From Pseudomonadota bacterium (lineage in GTDB: Bacteria > Pseudomonadota > Gammaproteobacteria > Steroidobacterales > Steroidobacteraceae), in the NCBI GenBank assembly GCA_021815925.1, contig JAKAZL010000003.1, positions 43,556 to 107,555 of the forward strand: a DNA stretch of 64,000 nt, given 5' to 3'. Positions 39,504-56,141 of the stretch are shown in pieces. Position numbers and translations under genes: made by a program. Within the stretch, counting starts at the first letter, position 1. Each line of letters starts with the position of its first letter. The notes beneath the pieces were generated by a model. That model made no database searches, was not told the origin of the DNA, and saw nothing but the letters and a program-made list of their open reading frames with translations.

Positions 39504-39735
39504 GCGGCGGGGCGTGGGCTTGCTGCGCCGTCGATGGCGCTCCCCGGTACCCCGCACCGCGGCGCGAGCACTCTACTGCCCCGTGTGACCGATCCGGTCG
39601 CGCACGGCGCGCGCAGGCCATCGTTCCGTCACGTGCATGCGGTATGCTCCGAGCGCGATTCGGTGCGCCTGCGCGCGCGCCGAACGGCCCCGCTCGCCCG
39701 CGGTACGGGATGATGCGCGCAGCCTAAGGAGTGCC

Positions 39736-42645
39736 ATGATCAGATCGCAACGCCACCGCAGCGGCCCGCTTGCCGGGTGGTCGCTCGGACTCTCACTGGG
39801 AGTGTGTCTGCCGGCCCTGGCGGTGAGTCCGCCCGCCGCGCACACCGATCTTATTGTCCGGCCGGTGCAGGTCACTGCCGCGAACCGCGTGCGCTACAGC
39901 GCAACATTGCCCACGTGGCGACGCGTGAGCCCGGTGGGCACCCTCATCAGCACGGCCAATTTTCCGACCAAGGTGCTGAGCATCGCCGGGCACGTGCTCG
40001 TGCTCGCCAACGGCGCAACCGTGTTTCAGACGGTCACGTGGTATGGCCCCGACCTGCAGCGCCAGGCGCGGCTCGCGACCTTCACGGCCGTCGCACCGGC
40101 GCACGCAACCACCTCCACGTTCTCCGGCAGCTCCGCGCAGGTCACCGATCCGCGCCATGCGGGCGCCGCAGGCTCGGTGTACTCAACGGACCAGCCGGCG
40201 AAACTGCGCGCCGCCGAGGCGCAGGCGACGGAGCACGCCGAGGAGAACCCCGAGCCGATTGCGACTCAGGTCATCTCGCACAGCGATCTGTTCCAGGGTC
40301 TGGCCGCCGCTCGGGACGGGACGGTCTATGCCACCGGCGGGAACGCCGACAAGGTGTTCGCCCTGCGGATGCAGGCGGGCCGGGTGCGCATCGTGCACGT
40401 GTATGGGCTCACCTGGCAGCCCTTCCCGGCCAGCCAGTATCCATACGTGTATCAAGGCAATCACGACCAGAAGCCCTTCCGCTTCTATCCCGACTCGGTG
40501 GTCGTGGGTCCGAATGGGCGCTACCTGTACGTCACGGGTCTGCTCGCCAACAGCCTGGCGCGCATCGACCTCAGCAGCGGCGCGACGCGCTACGTGAACG
40601 TCGGGCCGTTCCCGTTCGCCGTGGTGCTCGCCGACGGCGGCCGCCGTCTTGCCGTGAGCGACTGGGCCGGCAGCGGGGTGACGGTCCTCGACCGACGGAC
40701 CCTGCGCGTGCTCGGCACCGTCGCCACCGGTCCTGCGGTCGGAGCGCACACCGTGGCCGCCGGCGTGCATCCCACCGCGATGGTGAGCGTGCCGAACGGG
40801 CCCGATGTCTGGGTGGCGGACGCCAATGCCGATGCGCTGGTGCAGGTCGACACCCGTGCGTTGAAGGCCGTGCGGGCCATCGCCGACGGGCCGTACGCGG
40901 GCGCGCCCCCGGGCAGCTATCCGGACGCGCTGGCCGTGGCACAGGGCAAGCTGTTCGTCGCCAATGCCGGCAATGACGACGTGGCGGTCTACGATCTGGC
41001 GAGCGGCAAGGCCCTGGGACTGATCCCGACGGGCTGGTACCCGAGTGACCTTGCCGTAAGGCATGACAGCCTGTACGTGGTGGCGGCCAAGGGGCTGGGG
41101 ACCGGACCGAACCTGCACTGGCAGTACATTGGCAACATGATGCACGGACTGCTGCAGCGGGTGCCGCTGCAGGATCTGGCACACGAGCTGCCACGCTGGA
41201 CGCACCAGGCACTGCAAAGCGGCGGGTTCCTGCCCGCGCAACGGCAGACGCTGGCGCGGCACAATGCCCGCACCGCGGCGTTTCTGCGCCGCCACATTCA
41301 CTACGTCGTGCTCATCCTGCACGAGAACAAGACGTTCGATGAGGATCTGGGTGAGTACCGCGCGGCGGGCGCGTGGGCCGATCCGCGCTTCTCGCTCTAT
41401 GGTCCGCGGGAGCTGCCGAACCTCTACCGCTGGGCGGCGCACGATGCGCTGTTCGCGAACTTCATGGCCGACGGCGAGGTGACCGCGCAGGGTCACCAGT
41501 GGACCGACGGCGCATCCGATTCGGACGTTGTGCAGCGCCTCTGGCCCGAGTACTACTCCGACCGAGGACTGGTGTGGAATGCCGGTCCGGGTGGAACCGG
41601 CGCGCTGCACCCGAACGACCCGGCCAGCCACGATCCGTTCGAATATGCCCACCGACATCTCGGTGCGTATGCCAACCCGTGGATCAGCTACCCGCAGCGG
41701 CTCTACCTGTTCAACGACTTGCTGGCGCATCGGGTGTCGTTCGAAGACTTCGGCGAGAACGTCACGCGCGCCCGCGACGGTGTGATCCGCAACGCTCTGA
41801 TTGCACACGTCGATCAGACCTACCCCGGCTGGGACCGGCTGATCCGCGACGACAACCGGGTCGATGCGGCCCTCGCGTGGCTCAAGGCCCACCCGGGCAA
41901 GGCGTTCCCGCATTTCATCTTCATCTGGCTGCCCGACGATCATACCGCCGGGTTGAAGGCGTGCTATTACAGCCCGGACTACTACGTGGCCGACAACGAT
42001 CACGCCACCGCGCGATTGGTGCATTACCTCGCCGGGACGCCCCAGTGGCGCCACATGGTGGTGTTCCTCGAGCAGGATGACGCGCAGAGCGGCGCCGATC
42101 ACATCAATGCGCACCGCACGCTCGCGCTCGCGCTGGGCCCCTGGGTCAAGTCCGGGGTGCTCGACACGCAGCCGCTCTCGCAGGTCAACATCGTGCGCAG
42201 CATCGAGGCGGTGTTCGGTCTGCCGGCGATGTCGCAGTGGGATGCGAATTCCGAGGTCATCTCGGGTATCTGGCGCCGGACTGCGCGCACTGCGGCCATG
42301 CCGGTGCTACCCATGCAGGTCCCGGTGCAGTTCAACCCCGGCCGCTGCAGCGACCAGCTGCTCCTGCGACGCGAGGCGGGAGCTGCGGGGCACGCGCTGA
42401 CTCCGGGGTGGCTGAAGCGGCACACCGATCCGCACGGTGCGCACGGTCCGGCGTTGACCTCCCGCCAGGCGTTCACACCGACCTCGATCCTGAAGGTGGC
42501 CGGACCGGAGCAGTTGCGTCAGGAATGGATCGCGAGCAAGGGGCAGCGCAGCTACCGCGCGTTTCAGCAATTTCTCAGCGAGTACGCCGCGGCGCACGGC
42601 AGTCCCGTGTCGGCGTACGAGGCGAACGACGGGGCGCTGCATTGA
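39736..42645 (+). CDS. YncE-like beta-propeller / phosphoesterase (alkaline phosphatase superfamily) fusion, secreted
   Basis: YVTN-type repeats (GRYLYVTGLLANSLARIDLSSG), then HYVVLILHENKTFDEDLGEY...HFIFIWLPDDHTAG. Confidence 0.82.
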   Translation: MIRSQRHRSGPLAGWSLGLSLGVCLPALAVSPPAAHTDLIVRPVQVTAANRVRYSATLPTWRRVSPVGTLISTANFPTKVLSIAGHVLVLANGATVFQTVTWYGPDLQRQARLATFTAVAPAHATTSTFSGSSAQVTDPRHAGAAGSVYSTDQPAKLRAAEAQATEHAEENPEPIATQVISHSDLFQGLAAARDGTVYATGGNADKVFALRMQAGRVRIVHVYGLTWQPFPASQYPYVYQGNHDQKPFRFYPDSVVVGPNGRYLYVTGLLANSLARIDLSSGATRYVNVGPFPFAVVLADGGRRLAVSDWAGSGVTVLDRRTLRVLGTVATGPAVGAHTVAAGVHPTAMVSVPNGPDVWVADANADALVQVDTRALKAVRAIADGPYAGAPPGSYPDALAVAQGKLFVANAGNDDVAVYDLASGKALGLIPTGWYPSDLAVRHDSLYVVAAKGLGTGPNLHWQYIGNMMHGLLQRVPLQDLAHELPRWTHQALQSGGFLPAQRQTLARHNARTAAFLRRHIHYVVLILHENKTFDEDLGEYRAAGAWADPRFSLYGPRELPNLYRWAAHDALFANFMADGEVTAQGHQWTDGASDSDVVQRLWPEYYSDRGLVWNAGPGGTGALHPNDPASHDPFEYAHRHLGAYANPWISYPQRLYLFNDLLAHRVSFEDFGENVTRARDGVIRNALIAHVDQTYPGWDRLIRDDNRVDAALAWLKAHPGKAFPHFIFIWLPDDHTAGLKACYYSPDYYVADNDHATARLVHYLAGTPQWRHMVVFLEQDDAQSGADHINAHRTLALALGPWVKSGVLDTQPLSQVNIVRSIEAVFGLPAMSQWDANSEVISGIWRRTARTAAMPVLPMQVPVQFNPGRCSDQLLLRREAGAAGHALTPGWLKRHTDPHGAHGPALTSRQAFTPTSILKVAGPEQLRQEWIASKGQRSYRAFQQFLSEYAAAHGSPVSAYEANDGALH

Positions 42646-45672: not shown

Positions 45673-45777
45673 GAGGGGCTCTCCCGGGGGCGAGGGACCC
45701 GCAGAGTCTATCATCGCAGGCCGGGTGCGCCGCGGTGTGGCGCGGCGCCGTACCGAACGGGCTGCTAAGATTCCGCG

Positions 45778-48700
45778 ATGCGCGCATGGCAGTTCTGGAT
45801 CGACCGCGGGGGCACGTTCACGGATGTCATCGGACTGGCGCCGGACGGGCAACTGCACGTGCGCAAGGTACTCTCCCGTCAGATCGGGGCCGCGGAGAGT
45901 TCCGACGCCGGCATCGTCGGGATGCGCGGCATTCTCCAGGCGGCGCTCGGCCGGACCGATGGTTTCAGCGGCTGCATCGAGTCGGTGAAGGTGGGCACGA
46001 CGGTCGCGACCAACGCGCTGCTCGAACGGCAGGGGGCGCCGGTGCTGCTCGTCGTGACAGCCGGCTTCGCCGATGCGCTCAGAATCGGCTATCAGAACCG
46101 ACCCGACATCTTCGCCCGGCACATCGTGCTGCCCGAGCCGCTCTACACGCGGGTGATCGAGGCCGAGGAGCGCATCGATGCGCGCGGGGCGGTCCTCGCG
46201 CCGCTCGCGGCGGCCTCTCTGGAGGCCAACCTCGCCGCCGCTCGCCGCGATGGGCTGCGCTCGGTCGCCATCGTGTTCCTGCATGGCTGGCGGCATCCGC
46301 AGCATGAGCGGCAGGCCGCCGAGATCGCCCGCCGGCTGGGCTTCGAGGAGGTTTCCGTCTCGCACGAGCTCTCGCCGCTCGTGCGCTTCGTTGCGCGCGG
46401 GGACACCACCGTACTCAACGCCTATCTGGCGCCACCGCTCGGGGCGTATCTGCAGGGGCTGCGCGCGCAACTCGCGCGGCTCGATCCGCACGCCCGCCTC
46501 GAGCTGATGCAGAGCAACGGTGGCCTCGCGGCGCTCGAGCGGTTCCGGGCGCTCTCGAGCGTGCTGTCGGGGCCCGCCGGCGGACTCATTGGGATGGCCT
46601 GGATCGGCGCGCGCAGCGGCATCGAGCAACTCATCGGCTTTGACATGGGCGGGACGTCCACCGACGTGTCGCTCTTCGATGGTGAGTTGCCACGGCGTTT
46701 CGAACATCTGATCGCCGGGGTCCGCCTGCAGCAGACCATGCTCGACGTGCACACCATTGCCGCCGGCGGCGGCTCCATTCTCGCGGTGCGCGACGGACGT
46801 CTCGCGGTCGGACCGGCCTCGGCAGGCTCCTCACCCGGGCCGGCCTGTTATGGACGCGGGGGACCGCCGACGCTCACGGACGTGCAGGTGCTGCTCGGGC
46901 GGCTGCGCCCGGATACGCTGCCGGCGGTCTTCGGCGCGGACGGGCAGTCCCGCATCGATGCGGCGCGAGTTGCCGAGGCGTTCGCGGCGCTGAGCACCGC
47001 TGTGCAGGCCGGCACGCCGACTGCGCCAGAGGCGCTCGCGGCCGCCTTTCTCGATGTGGCGGTGGAGTCGATGGCCAACGCCATCCGGCAGGTCTCCACC
47101 CGCCAGGGACTCGACGCCGACGCCTTCACGTTGTTCTGTTTCGGCGGCGCCGCAGGCCAGCATGCCTGCCGCGTCGCGGCGGCGGCCGGGATGCATCGGG
47201 TGCTGGTGCATCCGCTCTCGAGCGTGCTGTCGGCCTTCGGCATCGGCGTGGCCGACCGGCTGGCCGTGCACCGGGCGAGCCTGCGGGCCACGCTCGGCGA
47301 GGCGGCGCTCGAGTCCGCGCGGGCACGTCTCGTGGAGCTCGAGCGCGCTGCGCGGCGCGAGCTCGAGCCCTTCGGCGCCGATCCCGGCGCGCTCGAGGTG
47401 GCGCAGCTGCTCGAGGTGCGCGCCGGCGACAGCGAAACCACCGTGTCGGTGCCGCCCGGGGATCCGGACGCGGTGCGCAGCGCGTTCCAGGGCGCGCACC
47501 GGCGGCGCTTCGGCTTCGAGACCCACTCGCTCGAGATCGTGATCGAGGCCGTGCGGGTCGAGGTGCGCATGCCGTCGCTGGCGCGCGCGGCATTGCGCAT
47601 GCCGCCCGAGCGGCTCGAGGCGGACCTTCCCGCGCGGGCACGCGCCTGGTTCGACGGGCGCTGGCAGGAGGTGCCGCTGGTGCCGGCCGGGACGCTGCAG
47701 GGGCCGATCGTCGGACCGGCCCTGATCGTCGCGGCGCACTCGACGCTCGTGCTCGAGTCCGGCTGGCAGGCCCGCCGCCTCGAGGATGGCGAGTGGCTGC
47801 TCGAGCGCACCCGCAGCGAAGCGCCGCATCCACAGCTCCAGGCGAGCGCCTCCTATGAGCGGGCCGACCCGGCGCGCGTCGAGATCTTCAACAATCTCTA
47901 CATGCACATCGCCGAGCAGATGGGCGAGGTGCTCAGGGCCACCGCGCAGTCGGTGAACATCAAGGAGCGGCTGGATTACTCGTGCGCGCTGTTCGATGCT
48001 GCGGGCGGACTCGTCGCCAACGCGCCACACATGCCGGTGCACCTCGGTTCGATGGGCGCGAGCGTGCGGGCGGTGATCCAGGCGCGCGCCGGCCGGCTGC
48101 GCCCCGGCGAGGCGTGGCTGCTCAACAGTCCCTATCACGGCGGTACGCACCTGCCGGACATGACGGTGGTGACGCCGGTGTTTCTCTCGGGCGCTGGTGA
48201 GCCGGACTGCTTCGTCGCCTCGCGCGCCCATCACGCCGATATCGGCGGCAGCACGCCCGGGTCGATGCCGCCCTTCAGCCGCACGATCGAGGAGGAGGGT
48301 GTGCTCCTCGAGTGCTTCGCACTGCTCGAGGGCGGACGGCTGCGCGAGTCGGCGCTGCGCACGGCGCTCGCCGCCGCCCGCTTCCCGGCGCGCCGTCCGG
48401 ATCAGAACCTCGCCGATCTGCGCGCGCAGCTTGCGGCCAATGCCCGCGGCATCGGCGAGATCGAGCGGGCCGTCTCCCGCCACGGGCTTGCGGCAGTGCG
48501 CGCGTACATGCGTCATGTACAGGTCAATGCGGCCGAGTGCATGCGCGAGGCGATCGCGCAGCTGCGCTCGGGCGAGTTCCGCTACGAGCTCGACGACGGC
48601 CAGGTGATCGCCGTTCGCATCAGCATCGAGGCCGGTCGAGCGCACATCGACTTCACCGGCACCTCGGGCATGCATGGCGGTAACTTCAACGCCCCGCGTG

Positions 48701-49389
48701 CGGTGTGCATCGCCGCGGTGGTGTACGTCTTTCGTACGCTCATCGCGCGGCCGATCCCGCTCAACGAGGGCTGCCTCGAGCCGCTCACCATCCACATCCC
48801 GCCGGGCTCGCTGCTCGATCCGCTGCCACCGGCGGCCGTGGCCGCCGGCAACGTCGAGACTTCGCAGTGCATCGTCGATGCGCTCTACGGGGCGCTCGGG
48901 GTCCTCGCGGCCTCGCAGGGCACGATGAACAATCTCACCTTCGGCAACGCCGAGCTGCAGTACTACGAGACCATCGCCGGCGGGGCGGGGGCCGGAGCGG
49001 ACTTCGAGGGATGCGACGCGGTGCAGACACACATGACCAACTCGCGGCTCACCGACCCAGAGATCCTCGAGGGGCGCTTTCCGGTGCTGCTGCGCGAGTT
49101 CTCGATCCGGCGCGGCTCCGGCGGTGCGGGCCGCCACCGGGGAGGCGACGGGGTGGTGCGGCGGCTCGAGTTCCGCGCGCCGCTTGCCGGGGCGCTGCTG
49201 GCCAATCACCGGCGAGTACGCCCCTTCGGGCTTGCAGGTGGGCAGAGCGCGGCGGGCGGTGCCGGGCACATCCGCCGCGCCGACGGGACGCTCGAGCCGA
49301 TCGGGGCGACCGCGAGTTTCGCGCTCGGCGCGGGCGATGAGCTCACGATCCTGACGCCCGGCGGCGGCGGCTTCGGCGCGCCGCCATGA
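45778..49389 (+). CDS. 5-oxoprolinase (fused hydantoinase A/B, OPLAH-like)
   Basis: 1203 aa; [15 protein letters not shown]-terminus, [50 protein letters not shown] near C-terminus; HyuA and HyuB in one ORF. Confidence 0.9.
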
Positions 49390-50069
49390 ATCTCTGGCCG
49401 CTGCTCGCGATCCTCGTGCTGGTGCTCGGCTTTGCCGCCGGCCTGAACCCGCTCCTCGTCATTCTGGTCACGGCCTTCACGGCGGGGGTTGCCGCCGGCA
49501 TTGCGCCGCTGCATCTGCTCGCCTCGCTCGGTCGTGCCTACAACGGGACGCGCTACGTCACGCTCATCTGGCTGATCCTGCCGGTCATCGGTCTGCTCGA
49601 GCACGAGGGGCTGCGCGAGCGGGCCCGCACCGTGATCGGTCGGATGCGCGCGGCGACCGCCGGGCGGATCATTCTCACTTACCTCGCGCTGCGCCAGATC
49701 ACCGCCGCGCTCGGTCTGACTTCCCTCGGTGGGCCGGCGCAGATGGTGCGCCCCATTGTGGCGCCGATGGCCGAGGGGGCCGCCGAGAGCCGCCTCGGGG
49801 CCCTCTCCGAGCGCATGCGCCACCTGGTGCGCGCCTACGCGGCGAGCGCCGACAACGTCGGGGCGTTCTTTGGCGAGGACATCTTTATCGCCATCGCCTC
49901 GATTCTGCTGATCAAGGGCTTTCTCGCCCAAAGCGGCTATGACATCGCGCCGTTTCGCCTCTCGATGTGGGCCATTCCGACGGCCCTGCTGGCCTTCGCG
50001 ATCCACGGGGCGCGGCTGTGGCGACTCGATGCGAAGTTGCGGCGCATGGCGCGCGAGGAGCGATCCTGA
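49386..50069 (+). CDS. DUF969 family membrane protein
   Basis: 227 aa multi-[39 protein letters not shown] overlap with 5-oxoprolinase. Confidence 0.8.
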
Positions 50070-50074
50070 TCGGC

Positions 50075-51022
50075 TTGCAGGACGTGTACGCGCTCGCCGG
50101 CGTCATGTTCGCCGGCTTCGCGCTGTACAGCGTGCGCGACCGCAGCAATGCGCGGCGTTTCGGCAACGGGGCGTTCTGGGCGCTGGTGGCCGTGAGCTTC
50201 CTGCTCGGTTCGCGGATCGGAGCAGTGGCCAACGGCGTGCTCGTCGTGGCGCTGATCCTGATCGGCGGCACGGGCGCCATGGGGCGCGGCTCGAAGGAGC
50301 GCTCGACGGGCGCGGAGCGTGCCCGCCGCGCCGCGCAGCGTGGCAACGCGCTGTTCGTGCCGGCGCTGCTCATCCCCCTCATCGCCGTGCTGGGGACTCT
50401 CACGCTGGGGCGCATCCGCATCGCCGGGGCCCCACTCGCCGACCCCCGGGACGTGACGCTCATCGCGCTCGCGCTCGGCATCGTCGTGGCCCTCATCGTG
50501 GCGCTGTGGCAGGCCCAGGCGCCGCCGCACGCCGCGCTCGACGAAGGGCGCCGGCTCGCGGACATGATGGGGTGGGCGCTCATCCTGCCGCAGCTGCTCG
50601 CCTCGCTCGGCGCCGTGTTCGCCCTGGCCGGCGTCGGTACGGCCGTCGGGCACATCGCCACGACCTGGCTGCCGCTCGGCCAACCGTTCGTCGCGGTGTT
50701 CGTCTACTGCGTGGGGATGGCGCTGTTCACCACGGTGATGGGCAATGCCTTCGCCGCCTTCCCGGTCATGACCGCGGCCATCGGAGTGCCGTTGATCGTG
50801 CAGCGCTTTGGCGGCGACCCGGCGGTAATGGGCGCGATCGGGATGCTCTCGGGGTTCTGCGGCACGCTGGTGACGCCGATGGCGGCCAACTTCAACATCG
50901 TGCCGGCGGTGCTGCTCGAGCTCCCCGACCGCAACGCGGTGATCAAAGTGCAGATTCCGACCGCGATCGCGCTGCTCGCCTGCAACGTCGCGCTGATGTA
51001 TGTGCTCGTGTTCCGCTTCTGA
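50075..51022 (+). CDS. DUF979 family membrane protein
   Basis: LQDVYALAGVMFAGFALYSVRDR...FCGTLVTPMAANFNIVPAVLLEL; non-ATG start inferred, paired with DUF969 gene. Confidence 0.8.
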   Translation: MQDVYALAGVMFAGFALYSVRDRSNARRFGNGAFWALVAVSFLLGSRIGAVANGVLVVALILIGGTGAMGRGSKERSTGAERARRAAQRGNALFVPALLIPLIAVLGTLTLGRIRIAGAPLADPRDVTLIALALGIVVALIVALWQAQAPPHAALDEGRRLADMMGWALILPQLLASLGAVFALAGVGTAVGHIATTWLPLGQPFVAVFVYCVGMALFTTVMGNAFAAFPVMTAAIGVPLIVQRFGGDPAVMGAIGMLSGFCGTLVTPMAANFNIVPAVLLELPDRNAVIKVQIPTAIALLACNVALMYVLVFRF

Positions 51023-51035
51023 CCCAGGACCTGGC

Positions 51036-52055
51036 ATGACCCCGACCCTCACGATCGAACTCGCCGAGCGCTTTGCACGCATCGCACTCGGCCATGCAAC
51101 GCGCGAATACCCCAACAAGCTCGATCACGTGCTCACGGGACCTTCGGACGTGCGTTCCCCGCGCGAGCTGCACCCGATCTTCTTCGGCAGCTTCGACTGG
51201 CACTCCTGCGTGCACGCGCACTGGCTGCTCGCGCGGCTGTACCGGCGCTTCCCGCAGCTCGAGGTCGCAGGCCAGATCCGTGCGCTGCTCGATGCGCAGT
51301 TCACCGCAGCGAAGGTCGCCGGGGAGCTCGCCTACCTGGAGCCCGCCGCCGCGCGCGGGTTCGAGCGGCCCTACGGCTGGGCATGGCTGTTGATGCTCGC
51401 AGGCGAGCTGCACCGCCACGACAGCACCGAGGGTCGAGTGTGGGCCGCTCGCCTCGCGCCGCTCGCCGCGGCGTTCGTACGCCGCTTCGAGGCGTTTCTG
51501 CCGCTCGCCACCTATCCGATCCGCGCCGGCGTGCATTCGAATACCGCCTTCGCGCTGCTCCTGGCGCGCGATTACGCCGCCGCCACCGGGCATGCGGCGT
51601 TCGCGGAGCTGTGTGCCGTCACGGCACGGCGCTGGTACGGCGCGGACCGTGTGAGTCCCGCGTGGGAGCCGTCCCAGGATGAATTCCTCTCCCCGACGCT
51701 CATCGAGGCGGCCTTGATGTCCGAGGTGCTCGCAGCGGGGGAGTTCGCCGCGTGGTTTGCCGGATTCCTGCCCGAGGCGGCGCAGGGTCTGCCGGCGACG
51801 CTGTTCACGCCCGCCGCCGTCAGCGACCGGACCGACGGGAAGATCGCCCACCTCGATGGCCTGAATCTCTCCCGTGCGTGGTGCTGGCGGCGGATCGGAG
51901 CGGCGCTGGCGCCGGACGATCCGCTGCGTGGGACGCTCGGGCCGGCGATCGGGAGGCATCTGGCGAGCGCTCTGGAGCACGTCGCGGGTGACTACATGGG
52001 GGAGCATTGGCTCTCGAGTTTCGCGCTGCTGGCGCTGGACCCGGTGAGTGCCTGA
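51036..52055 (+). CDS. DUF2891 family protein
   Basis: YPNKLDHVLTGPSDVRSPRELHPIFFGSFDWHSCVHAHWLLARL...; ATG at 51036. Confidence 0.82.
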   Translation: MTPTLTIELAERFARIALGHATREYPNKLDHVLTGPSDVRSPRELHPIFFGSFDWHSCVHAHWLLARLYRRFPQLEVAGQIRALLDAQFTAAKVAGELAYLEPAAARGFERPYGWAWLLMLAGELHRHDSTEGRVWAARLAPLAAAFVRRFEAFLPLATYPIRAGVHSNTAFALLLARDYAAATGHAAFAELCAVTARRWYGADRVSPAWEPSQDEFLSPTLIEAALMSEVLAAGEFAAWFAGFLPEAAQGLPATLFTPAAVSDRTDGKIAHLDGLNLSRAWCWRRIGAALAPDDPLRGTLGPAIGRHLASALEHVAGDYMGEHWLSSFALLALDPVSA

Positions 52056-52657: not shown

Positions 52658-55600
52658 TCAGGACCCGGAGGCCGGCAGGGCCGGGGGATTGTTCATCGTC
52701 ACCGCCATTCCCGTCGGCAGCGTGCTGACCCCGGCGGCGTAGGCCGCACCGTTCCACGCCTTGACGGCGCTGACCACCGAGCCGTTGTAGCGCGTGAGCA
52801 GCTGCTCGATCTCGGTGCGATCGGCGCGGATCAGGGCGAGCACCTGGGCGCGCGGCTGCTCGCCCCAGGGGCCGGCGCTCATGCCGTAGAGCGTCTCGAC
52901 GTGCTGGTGCAGGTGCGAGAAGTGGCGCAGGAAGTCCTCCTCGGCGTTGTGCTGCGTGTGCGGGTTCCACAGCACGTCCTGATAGGCGCTCAGCGTCTTC
53001 TGGAGCTTCTTCGCCTGTGCCAGCAGGGCGGCGTTGCGCTTCGCCCAGTCGGCGTCCGTGCGGCCGCGCGCCAGCACTCCAGCCAGCGTCGTGCGCATGG
53101 CCGAGACGTGGTTCAGCAGGCGATTGACCGCCGAGAGCTCCTCGCGCGCCGCCAAGCCGGCCTGGGTCGCCGCGCGGGCGCTGGCCACGCTCACCGTGTA
53201 ACGCGGGTCAGACGCCACGCTCAGCGTCACGTGCTGCGTGTACGTCCCGGCATGCAGCGTGGCGGTGTACTGACCCGGCAGCGCGCCCGGACCGAACCCG
53301 CCGTGCCCGGGCGAGCCGAGCGGCGGGTTGAGTTTGACCGGGGCCTTGTAGCGCAGATTCCAGACGATCGCGTTGAAGCCGGCCTTGCCCGGTCCGTGCA
53401 GTGTCGTCACCAGGGTGCCGGCGGCATCGCGGATCGTGATGCGCACCGGGCCGTGATGCGCGGCCTTCTCGGCCGGCGTCGGCTTCAAGGCCTTGGCGAG
53501 GTGATAGCTGATGACCGCGCCGCTGGGCGCGTTCGGGGCGACGAAGGCACTCGGTCCCACGCCGTTGGTGCGCGAGGCCTGCAGCTCGATGCCGGGCGAT
53601 GCGCTGAACGCATGGAACGGCGCCTTGGCCACCGCGCTGTCGTATTGCTCCAGGGGCCTGAGGTTGTCGAGCACCCAGATGCCGCGGCCATGCGTGGCGA
53701 GCAGCAGTCCGCGGTGATCCGGCGCGAAGCTCACGTCCCACACCGACAGGCCGTGCGGCAGGTTGGCGTGCAGCGGTTGCCAATGGCCGCCGTCATCGAA
53801 CGACACGTACAGCCCCGCGGAGATCGTGCCGGCAAACAGCAGCCCGGCATGGTTCGGGTCTTCGCTCACCACCTCGACGCTGCTTTGCGGCAGTCCGGTG
53901 GTGATGCGCGTCCAATGCTTACCGTAGTCCGTGGTGCGATAGACGAAGGGCGCATCGTTGCCGATCTCGTGACCGTCGAAGGCCGCATAGGCGGTGCCCG
54001 CCGCGAACGGCGAGGGCTCGACGTGATAGACGCGGGCCCACTGCGGCGCGCCGGGCGGAGTCACCTTGCTCCAGTGCGCCCCGTCGTCCCGGCTCACCCA
54101 GACCCAGCCGTCATCGGTGCCGACCCAGATGACCTTCGGGTCGCTCGGCGCGAGGGCGAGGGACTGGATGGTGTCGTAGGTCTCCGCCCCGCTCATGTCG
54201 AGTGTGACCGGTCCGCCGCTCGGCTTCTGCTTCGCTTTGATGTTGCGCGTCAGATCCGGACTGATGACCTGCCAGTGTTTGCCGCCGTCGGTGCTGTGGA
54301 ACACCACGTCCGCGGCGAGATACACGTTCTTCGGGTCGCTTGGGGAGACCGCCACCGGCGTGGTCCAGTCGAAGCGGTACTTCTGCGCGCCGGGGTGTTT
54401 GCCCGAGAGCAGCAGACCGCCGAGCACGTCGCGCAGGTAGGGGTTGATCTCACGCTTGCGGCCGGTGGTCCGATCGAGCACCGTCGCGAAGCCGTCATCG
54501 GTCGTGGAGTAGATGATCGAGGCATTGTTCGGGGACGGCACGACGTACTGGCCGTCGCCACCGGCGACATCGAACCAGTCCTGCGCACCGGTCACCCCGC
54601 CGCGGTCATAGTCGCTGCCCGCGCCGCACCAGGCGTCGTTGTCCTGCAGGCCGCCGCAGACCAGGTACGGCCAGGGGTGGTTCGTGGCGCTCGCGGCCAC
54701 CTGGTAGAACTGCTCGATCGGCAGGTTGTCGAGGTGGCGCCAGTGCTTGCCGGTATCGAGCGACAGGTATACCCCGCCGTCGTTGCCCTGGATGATGCGC
54801 TTGGGGTTGTGTGGATCGATCCAGATTGCATGGTGATCGACGTGCACGCCGGCATCGGCATAGAACACGTGCGCACCGCCGTCCTTGCTCTCCATCATCT
54901 TCATCGACAGCAGGAACAGCCGCTGCGGGTCGTTCGGCATCACCGCGAGCTGCGTGAAGTAAAACGGCCGCACGTCGCTGTTGTGGTTGTCGCTCACCTG
55001 GCTCCAGTGGCTGCCGAGGTCGTGCGAGACCCACAGGACGCCGCCCTTGGCCTGCAGCACCGCGTACACGGTGCTCGGCTGGCTCGGCGCGAAGGCGACG
55101 GCGCTGCGGCCGATCTTGCCGGCGGGCAACCCGTGGGTGAGCTTCTTCCAGTGCACACCGCCGTCGGTGGACCGATACAGTCCGCCGCTCTTGCCGCCGC
55201 TGGTGAGCATCCAGGCGCGCCGCTGCAACGGCCACATGCCGGCGATCAGCACCTTGGGGTTACCCGGCTCGAAGGCGAGGGTGCTGCAGCCGGTGTGATC
55301 GTTCAGGTAGAGCACGCGCTGCCAGTGCGCACCGTTGTCGGTGCTCATGAAGACCCCGCGCCGGGGGCCGCGCTTCCACAGATCACCGGTCGTGCAGGCG
55401 AACACCACGTTGGTGTTCTGCGGGTCGACGGCGATGGCTGCGATCTGCCCGGCGCTGTGCAGGCCCTTGTCCTCCCAGGTCGAGCCGCCATCGGGACTGA
55501 AGAAGATTCCCGCGCCATTGAGCACGTCATTGCGCGGATTGGCCTCGCCCGTGCCCACCCAGAGCCAGTTCGGGTTGCCGCCGGCGAGCGTCATCGAGCC

Positions 55601-55882
55601 GATCGACTGGGTCGGCTCGTGCGTGAAGATCGCCTTCCAGCTCGTACCGCCGTCCTCGGTCTTCCAGACTCCGCCGCCGGCGGAACCGACGTAGTACAGA
55701 GAGGAGTCGCCCGGCACGCCGAGCACGCTGGTGACGCGACCGCCGGCGACTGCCGGGCCGAGGTCGCGGAACTTCAGCCCGTGAAACGGGGCCGGGTGCT
55801 TCGGCGCGGCGCTCGGGGCTGCGGTGGCCACGAGGCTGGTGCCCAGGAGTGCCGCGGTTGCCAATGCCAGGATCGGGCGCAT
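52658..55882 (-). CDS. Sortilin/VPS10-like, BNR/WD40/YVTN repeat secreted protein (glycosyl hydrolase-like beta-propeller)
   Basis: 1074 aa with signal peptide; repeated VWKTEDGGTSWKAIF, FFSPDGGSTWEDKG, MSTDNGAHWQRV Asp-box motifs. Confidence 0.85.
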   Translation of the reverse strand: MRPILALATAALLGTSLVATAAPSAAPKHPAPFHGLKFRDLGPAVAGGRVTSVLGVPGDSSLYYVGSAGGGVWKTEDGGTSWKAIFTHEPTQSIGSMTLAGGNPNWLWVGTGEANPRNDVLNGAGIFFSPDGGSTWEDKGLHSAGQIAAIAVDPQNTNVVFACTTGDLWKRGPRRGVFMSTDNGAHWQRVLYLNDHTGCSTLAFEPGNPKVLIAGMWPLQRRAWMLTSGGKSGGLYRSTDGGVHWKKLTHGLPAGKIGRSAVAFAPSQPSTVYAVLQAKGGVLWVSHDLGSHWSQVSDNHNSDVRPFYFTQLAVMPNDPQRLFLLSMKMMESKDGGAHVFYADAGVHVDHHAIWIDPHNPKRIIQGNDGGVYLSLDTGKHWRHLDNLPIEQFYQVAASATNHPWPYLVCGGLQDNDAWCGAGSDYDRGGVTGAQDWFDVAGGDGQYVVPSPNNASIIYSTTDDGFATVLDRTTGRKREINPYLRDVLGGLLLSGKHPGAQKYRFDWTTPVAVSPSDPKNVYLAADVVFHSTDGGKHWQVISPDLTRNIKAKQKPSGGPVTLDMSGAETYDTIQSLALAPSDPKVIWVGTDDGWVWVSRDDGAHWSKVTPPGAPQWARVYHVEPSPFAAGTAYAAFDGHEIGNDAPFVYRTTDYGKHWTRITTGLPQSSVEVVSEDPNHAGLLFAGTISAGLYVSFDDGGHWQPLHANLPHGLSVWDVSFAPDHRGLLLATHGRGIWVLDNLRPLEQYDSAVAKAPFHAFSASPGIELQASRTNGVGPSAFVAPNAPSGAVISYHLAKALKPTPAEKAAHHGPVRITIRDAAGTLVTTLHGPGKAGFNAIVWNLRYKAPVKLNPPLGSPGHGGFGPGALPGQYTATLHAGTYTQHVTLSVASDPRYTVSVASARAATQAGLAAREELSAVNRLLNHVSAMRTTLAGVLARGRTDADWAKRNAALLAQAKKLQKTLSAYQDVLWNPHTQHNAEEDFLRHFSHLHQHVETLYGMSAGPWGEQPRAQVLALIRADRTEIEQLLTRYNGSVVSAVKAWNGAAYAAGVSTLPTGMAVTMNNPPALPASGS

Positions 55883-56141
55883 GTGGGGGTCTCCCATCGG
55901 ACGGATCGGTTTGGGGCCGCCAAGGTACCCTTTTGCCTGTGCGGCCGGGCCGCCTTTTGCCACGGCCCGTCGCCTCAATCCGGCCATTGCCCGCAAAAGC
56001 GCCCGCCGGTGCCGCTGTCCGGCCCGGTCTGCCCGCCCGCGGCGGTCCACCGGCGGTCGGCGCGGGGGCGTTCCGGCGGGTGACGGACGGCGCCGCAGGT
56101 GCTAAGTTTCGGGCCCACGATTCATAAAGTCAGGGCCAGTC

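Follow-up and report, generated by a model that had tools for sequence, protein, structure and literature searches.

Operon organization and conservation

We analysed a 64-kb stretch of DNA from a Steroidobacteraceae genome, here called the window, and within it a tight operon of four plus-strand genes (45778-52055) encoding a HyuA-HyuB fusion, DUF969, DUF979 and DUF2891. Judged from sequence and comparative evidence, these genes very likely form a single operon for the utilisation of 5-oxoproline (pyroglutamate), which arises when glutamate or glutamine cyclises. The first gene (45778-49389) encodes a putative ATP-dependent 5-oxoprolinase of 1203 residues, so assigned from its Pfam domains, its catalytic residues, its place among the fused enzymes in a tree and its DRGGTFTD motif. 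It overlaps the DUF969 gene (49386-50069; PF06149, 3e-82) through an ATGA at 49386-49389, and DUF969 is followed by DUF979 (50066-51022; PF06166, 4e-117); these two would be the halves of a 5-oxoproline transporter. The likeliest DUF979 start is probably the CTG at 50066, which overlaps the DUF969 stop as CTGA (50066-50069), because three congeners have GTG, GTG and TTG at exactly this position, with an identical 4-base overlap. A gap of 13 nt then separates the DUF979 stop from the start of DUF2891 (51036-52055; PF11199, 7e-132), a predicted cytosolic (alpha/alpha)-barrel protein occupying the position that pyroglutamyl peptidase I (Pcp) holds in related operons. Thus, the gene order, common strand, close spacing and ATGA overlap given in a preliminary description of this DNA are all borne out.

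The predicted promoter (45763-45777, plus strand) consists of an extended -10 element, TGCTAAGAT (TGC TAAGAT at 45763-45771; whole span shown, 45763-45780), and a 6-nt spacer that places it six bases 5' of the first ATG. The arrangement TGnTAAGAT-N6-ATG is kept in all four congeneric loci and has its sole match in the window here, with 0 expected from shuffled sequence. With a predicted extended -10 so close to the ATG, the operon mRNA is probably leaderless.

A search of 40 relatives found DUF979 in four genomes of the genus, the window's included, each of them with the complete four-gene unit; protein identity to the window is 76-92% in the remaining three. The ratio of nonsynonymous to synonymous substitution rates is about 0.1-0.22 for all four genes in the two pairs computed, and the genes are under purifying selection in the genus. 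One congener (L191) retains the unit, and the flanking SDR and RlpA-like genes of the other two (L190, L192) were not found around it, so that these four genes, and not a larger block, are the unit; by its gene order, L191 is a case in which the unit moved or its flanks were rearranged. The whole block is present in 6 of 299 genomes of a phylum sample, counting the window genome (G000, whose assembly is 93.8% complete), and at 12 of 80 named DUF2891 loci. Its recurrence in congeners, phylum sample and named loci argues that the neighbourhood is not a product of chance. Counts within the phylum sample are 26 genomes for DUF979, 25 for DUF2891 (strong matches), 91 for PxpA and, once two weak matches had been dropped, 121 for HyuB-type enzymes.

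The putative fused oxoprolinase

The 1203-residue protein matches Hydant_A_N (4e-52, residues 6-187), Hydantoinase_A (4e-89, 207-494) and Hydantoinase_B (4e-186, 697-1202), so that a single chain comprises the HyuA N-terminal domain, the HyuA domain and the HyuB domain. D9, D289, D733, H791, D794 and H818 all match ATP-site and metal-site residues of caprolactamase, the same six catalytic positions that were mutated in the study of that enzyme. The GxxPGP motif is present as GSSPGP at 350, and the D-H-D-H metal site is complete. Among 48 HyuA-type domains placed in a tree, that of the window enzyme groups with other fused enzymes at 100/100 support, and the split enzymes group with the two references, 7HK5 (N-methylhydantoinase) and 6YRA (caprolactamase). 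DRGGTFTD is nearly uniform in the fused group; the split group has D-V/I/T-GGTFTD. Human OPLAH has the DRGGTFTD form as well, a lead and not a test. By this tree, with those two references, the protein is oxoprolinase-like and belongs with the fused enzymes, not with N-methylhydantoinase or caprolactamase. Naming by NCBIfam was set aside, the best equivalogs (caprolactamase and acetophenone carboxylase) all lying far below cut-off. PxpA, the LamB/YcsF subunit of the other 5-oxoprolinase type, had no match in the 93.8% complete window genome.

DUF969 and DUF979 as a proposed transporter

The preliminary description held that neither membrane family has an established function, a view that is now outdated. 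PMC12795558, PMC11467057 and PMC6904757 all credit Niehaus (2017) with the proposal that DUF969 and DUF979 form a 5-oxoproline transporter, and in C. jejuni a mutant lacking cj0552-4 (DUF969-DUF979-DUF2891) does not grow on 5-oxoproline as nitrogen source (2026; PMC12795558). Published AlphaFold2 (AF2) work also places DUF979 in the ion-transporter superfamily and predicts a DUF969-DUF979 complex. Both genes are present as a pair in the window. The AF2 model of its DUF979 (mean predicted local distance difference test score, pLDDT, 88) has the AbgT transporters YdaH and MtrF (4r0c, 4r1i) as top fold matches, and these are weak (E 2e-3; template modelling (TM) score 0.36-0.40). DUF969 and DUF979 show no detectable homology in profile-profile comparison, so that their shared ancestry rests on the published structure models, and profile searches of either against PDB sequences gave no match. 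The suggestion that the two are halves of one transporter thus agrees with the published analysis and, weakly, with our fold comparison of predicted models.

A 5-oxoprolinase, either PxpA or a HyuB-type enzyme, is encoded in 25 of the 26 DUF979 genomes compared with 179 of 299 overall (Fisher test, 1.6e-5), and DUF979 lies adjacent to one or the other in 16 of the 26, adjoining PxpA in ten and the fused enzyme in six; the two types occur together in only one. An exchange of two unrelated 5-oxoprolinases beside the same transporter is what would be expected if the substrate is 5-oxoproline, and we regard it as strong comparative support for DUF969/DUF979 carrying that compound. Co-occurrence and adjacency likewise favour the import and ring opening of 5-oxoproline put forward in the preliminary description. 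The related lactam or hydantoin that it also considered is made less likely by the enzyme's position in the tree and its motif, and by its exchange with PxpABC.

Exchange of DUF2891 and Pcp

The gene that follows DUF979 encodes Pcp at 12 of the 26 DUF979 loci, DUF2891 at 13, and neither at one. A strong match to Pcp or DUF2891 is present in all 26 DUF979 genomes and both in only two (Fisher test, 2e-5, and 0.002 within the window's class, values that are inflated by phylogenetic relatedness). The window genome has DUF2891, and Pcp was not detected in its 93.8% complete assembly. Within each of two families (f9 and f19) the alternatives occur in different genera, so the exchange is not merely a split between classes. 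Nor is it just a shadow of the oxoprolinase type, because two genomes (G199, G279) combine PxpA with DUF2891 and no Pcp, another (G294) combines the fused enzyme with Pcp, and one locus (L100) joins PxpBCA with DUF969-DUF979-DUF2891. Other arrangements include a fused enzyme-DUF2891 operon (L174) and the operon PxpB-PxpC-PxpA-DUF969-DUF979-DUF2891-Pcp (L175). A larger sample of the window's class yielded one new DUF979 genome only, with neither Pcp nor DUF2891 within 1.5 kb.

Plasmids of Pseudomonadota, Actinomycetota, Gemmatimonadota and Bacillota repeat the pattern of Pcp or DUF2891. In the plasmid survey Pcp follows DUF979 in Enterococcus, Melissococcus, Secundilactobacillus, Vibrio, Comamonadaceae, Embleya and one Klebsiella segment; DUF2891 follows it on Klebsiella conjugative plasmids and in Gemmatirosa and, from adjacent match coordinates, accompanies it in Burkholderia, Sphingomonas, Niveispirillum and Kosakonia. 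A Streptomyces plasmid has both. The Klebsiella plasmid sets (L212, 3773-6483, and about 30 further, at least one on a conjugative IncF plasmid) lie near an IS3 transposase and an Xre/RES toxin-antitoxin-like pair.

Structure and distribution of DUF2891

DUF2891 of the window matches only PF11199, and a Peptidase_C15 domain was not found in it. Its AF2 model (pLDDT 92) superposes at TM 0.93 on C. jejuni CJ0554, the product of the third gene of the cj0552-4 unit and the protein of the solved DUF2891 structures 8IEU and 8IEV. After CJ0554 the closest folds are those of (alpha/alpha)-barrel enzymes, glycoside hydrolases and lyases such as the GH88 unsaturated glucuronyl hydrolase 3vxd (TM 0.55) and GH105. 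The residues invariant in 24 homologues (D54, H56, H60, E97, E110, R111, H167, E211, D267, H272, R280 and H324) look like an enzyme pocket. The preliminary description had left DUF2891 as an enzyme or a chaperone; the barrel fold and the position exchanged with a peptidase speak for the enzyme, and on the same evidence we reject the chaperone.

Signal peptides can be recognised by eye in six homologues (L003, L007, L008, L009, L015 and L020), in one case with a lipobox. The six make up a single clade (99/98), and DUF979 is next to none of them. The exported and cytosolic forms have identical invariant residues, which makes a reaction dependent on a nucleotide cofactor unlikely. In one genome (G075, L177) an exported DUF2891 lipoprotein heads the operon DUF2891-NRAMP-PxpA-PxpB-PxpC, so that the link of DUF2891 appears to be to 5-oxoproline and not to DUF969/DUF979. 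Despite the crystal structure, no published function for DUF2891 was found in the literature searched. At Burkholderia-type DUF2891 loci without DUF979, the translation of a neighbouring gene reads like an acyl-CoA dehydrogenase.

Outside the operon, the window encodes a 1002-residue phosphoesterase-domain protein with an N-terminal half that is propeller-like by eye (39637-42645) and, on the minus strand, a 1130-residue sortilin/BNR-repeat protein (52658-56050). The many long antisense open reading frames around these two large genes are GC artefacts.

Discussion

Overall, we believe that the four genes encode uptake and ring opening of 5-oxoproline together with a supply of it through DUF2891, and we put the probability of this explanation as a whole at about 0.78. 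DUF969 and DUF979 would together make up a secondary transporter with the ion-transporter fold and carry 5-oxoproline over the inner membrane, a role with genetic support elsewhere. The HyuA half of the fused enzyme would then phosphorylate the lactam at the expense of ATP, and the HyuB half would hydrolyse it at the metal site to L-glutamate, as suggested by family, clade and catalytic residues. DUF2891 may be an (alpha/alpha)-barrel enzyme that needs no cofactor and, probably as a hydrolase, feeds 5-oxoproline to the pathway; its likeliest substrate would be a pyroglutamyl peptide, an amide or another 5-oxoprolyl conjugate, because it stands where related operons have Pcp. We tentatively propose that DUF2891 takes over the supply of 5-oxoproline from Pcp. 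More doubtful still is the more specific idea that it represents a new class of pyroglutamyl peptidase, or of hydrolase for 5-oxoprolyl conjugates, that is not homologous to Pcp, has an (alpha/alpha)-barrel in cytosolic and exported forms, and replaces Pcp in 5-oxoproline operons. The transporter idea and most of the reading of the operon are already published; new, in that neither was found in the literature searched, are the exchange between Pcp and DUF2891 and the clade of exported proteins.

Several observations weigh against this explanation, in addition to the relatedness that inflates the Fisher values for Pcp and DUF2891. Streptomyces SGAir0924 and G170, the latter with DUF979, DUF2891 and Pcp in succession, keep both proteins, so the two are not simply redundant. 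Klebsiella conjugative plasmids have DUF969-DUF979-DUF2891, yet a chromosome-like Klebsiella segment has DUF969-DUF979-Pcp. At 44 of 80 DUF2891 loci there is no DUF969/DUF979 within the fetched flanks, and clustering of the neighbours of these 44 gave only lineage-specific synteny and no functional lead. The retention of both proteins in two lineages and the frequency with which DUF2891 stands alone make its step the least certain of the pathway. The C. jejuni mutant had lost all three genes and was assayed in a preliminary growth test, so that DUF2891 and the transporter are not separated by that result (PMC12795558). Finally, one genome rated 100% complete (G011) has DUF969-DUF979-Pcp (L176, 6219-8483) and neither PxpA nor a HyuB-type enzyme; 5-oxoproline would be a dead end inside such a cell, and the set suggests either export or another ring-opening enzyme.

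It is improbable, though less so than the readings that follow, that DUF2891 acts as an isomerase, such as a racemase that converts the D form of 5-oxoproline to the L form accepted by the oxoprolinase. An enzyme of this kind would work alongside any transporter or oxoprolinase; (alpha/alpha)-barrel epimerases use paired histidines, of which DUF2891 has five that are invariant (H56, H60, H167, H272, H324) next to its invariant acidic residues and arginines, and the identity of these residues in cytosolic and exported forms argues against a cytosolic cofactor. However, the folds closest to it are those of glycoside hydrolases and lyases, the top 50 matches include no epimerase, and a racemase leaves the exchange with Pcp unexplained. 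A slightly smaller chance attaches to DUF969/DUF979 serving chiefly to export 5-oxoproline or to carry it as an osmolyte, with the oxoprolinase removing what stays inside. The G011 set, several plasmid DUF969-DUF979-Pcp sets with no adjoining oxoprolinase, and the published listing of the cluster among genes that co-occur with halotolerance in Pontixanthobacter would all suit such a role, whereas the presence of an oxoprolinase in nearly all DUF979 carriers and the failure of the C. jejuni mutant to grow on external 5-oxoproline (PMC12795558) point to import.

We consider it very unlikely that the operon handles a lactam other than 5-oxoproline, a hydantoin or similar. The HyuA/HyuB superfamily does include hydantoinases and caprolactamase, N-methylhydantoinase is the best full-length solved match of the window enzyme, and the authors of the caprolactamase study warn that many oplAB annotations are wrong. 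Nonetheless, the fused clade is split from the hydantoinase and caprolactamase references at 100/100, the vicinal cysteine pair of caprolactamase is absent from the window enzyme, this transporter has PxpABC and Pcp as its partners elsewhere, the one acting on 5-oxoproline and the other on pyroglutamyl peptides, and the C. jejuni genetics (PMC12795558) concern 5-oxoproline itself; on these grounds we reject a hydantoin or caprolactam pathway and retain 5-oxoproline as the likely substrate.

The compound forms unavoidably wherever glutamine and glutamate occur, and its uptake by bacteria is poorly known. The exchange with Pcp suggests for DUF2891 a specific role that is cheap to test and, if the proposal is true, many annotations of 'unknown' across several phyla, those on Klebsiella conjugative plasmids included, become readable.

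Comparison with known systems

Like the fused, eukaryotic-type enzymes of the OPLAH type, the putative oxoprolinase of the window combines HyuA and HyuB in a single chain with the ATP and metal residues and DRGGTFTD. CapAB (6YRA) and N-methylhydantoinase (7HK5) belong to the same superfamily and have the same catalytic residues, but both lie outside the fused clade, and the vicinal disulfide of CapB is missing from the window protein. Pcp (Peptidase_C15) occupies the position after DUF979 that DUF2891 holds in the window; the fold types differ and no sequence relationship was found, so we propose DUF2891 as an analogue and not as a member of that family. PxpABC with the NRAMP-type transporter PxpT/YcsG would serve the same proposed pathway, and PxpT is required for growth of C. 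glutamicum on 5-oxoproline; laboratory strains deleted for the transporter gene (ycsG in B. subtilis 168, pxpT in C. glutamicum ATCC 13032) reportedly fail to use the compound. Enzyme and transporter are both unrelated to those of the window, whose genome lacks a PxpA match, yet PxpABC is itself the partner of DUF969/DUF979 in ten of the sampled genomes. The closest counterpart is cj0552-cj0553-cj0554 of C. jejuni, which encodes the same three proteins in the same order as DUF969-DUF979-DUF2891 here; the unit reported there has three genes only (PMC12795558), whereas the operon described here is headed by the gene of a fused oxoprolinase.

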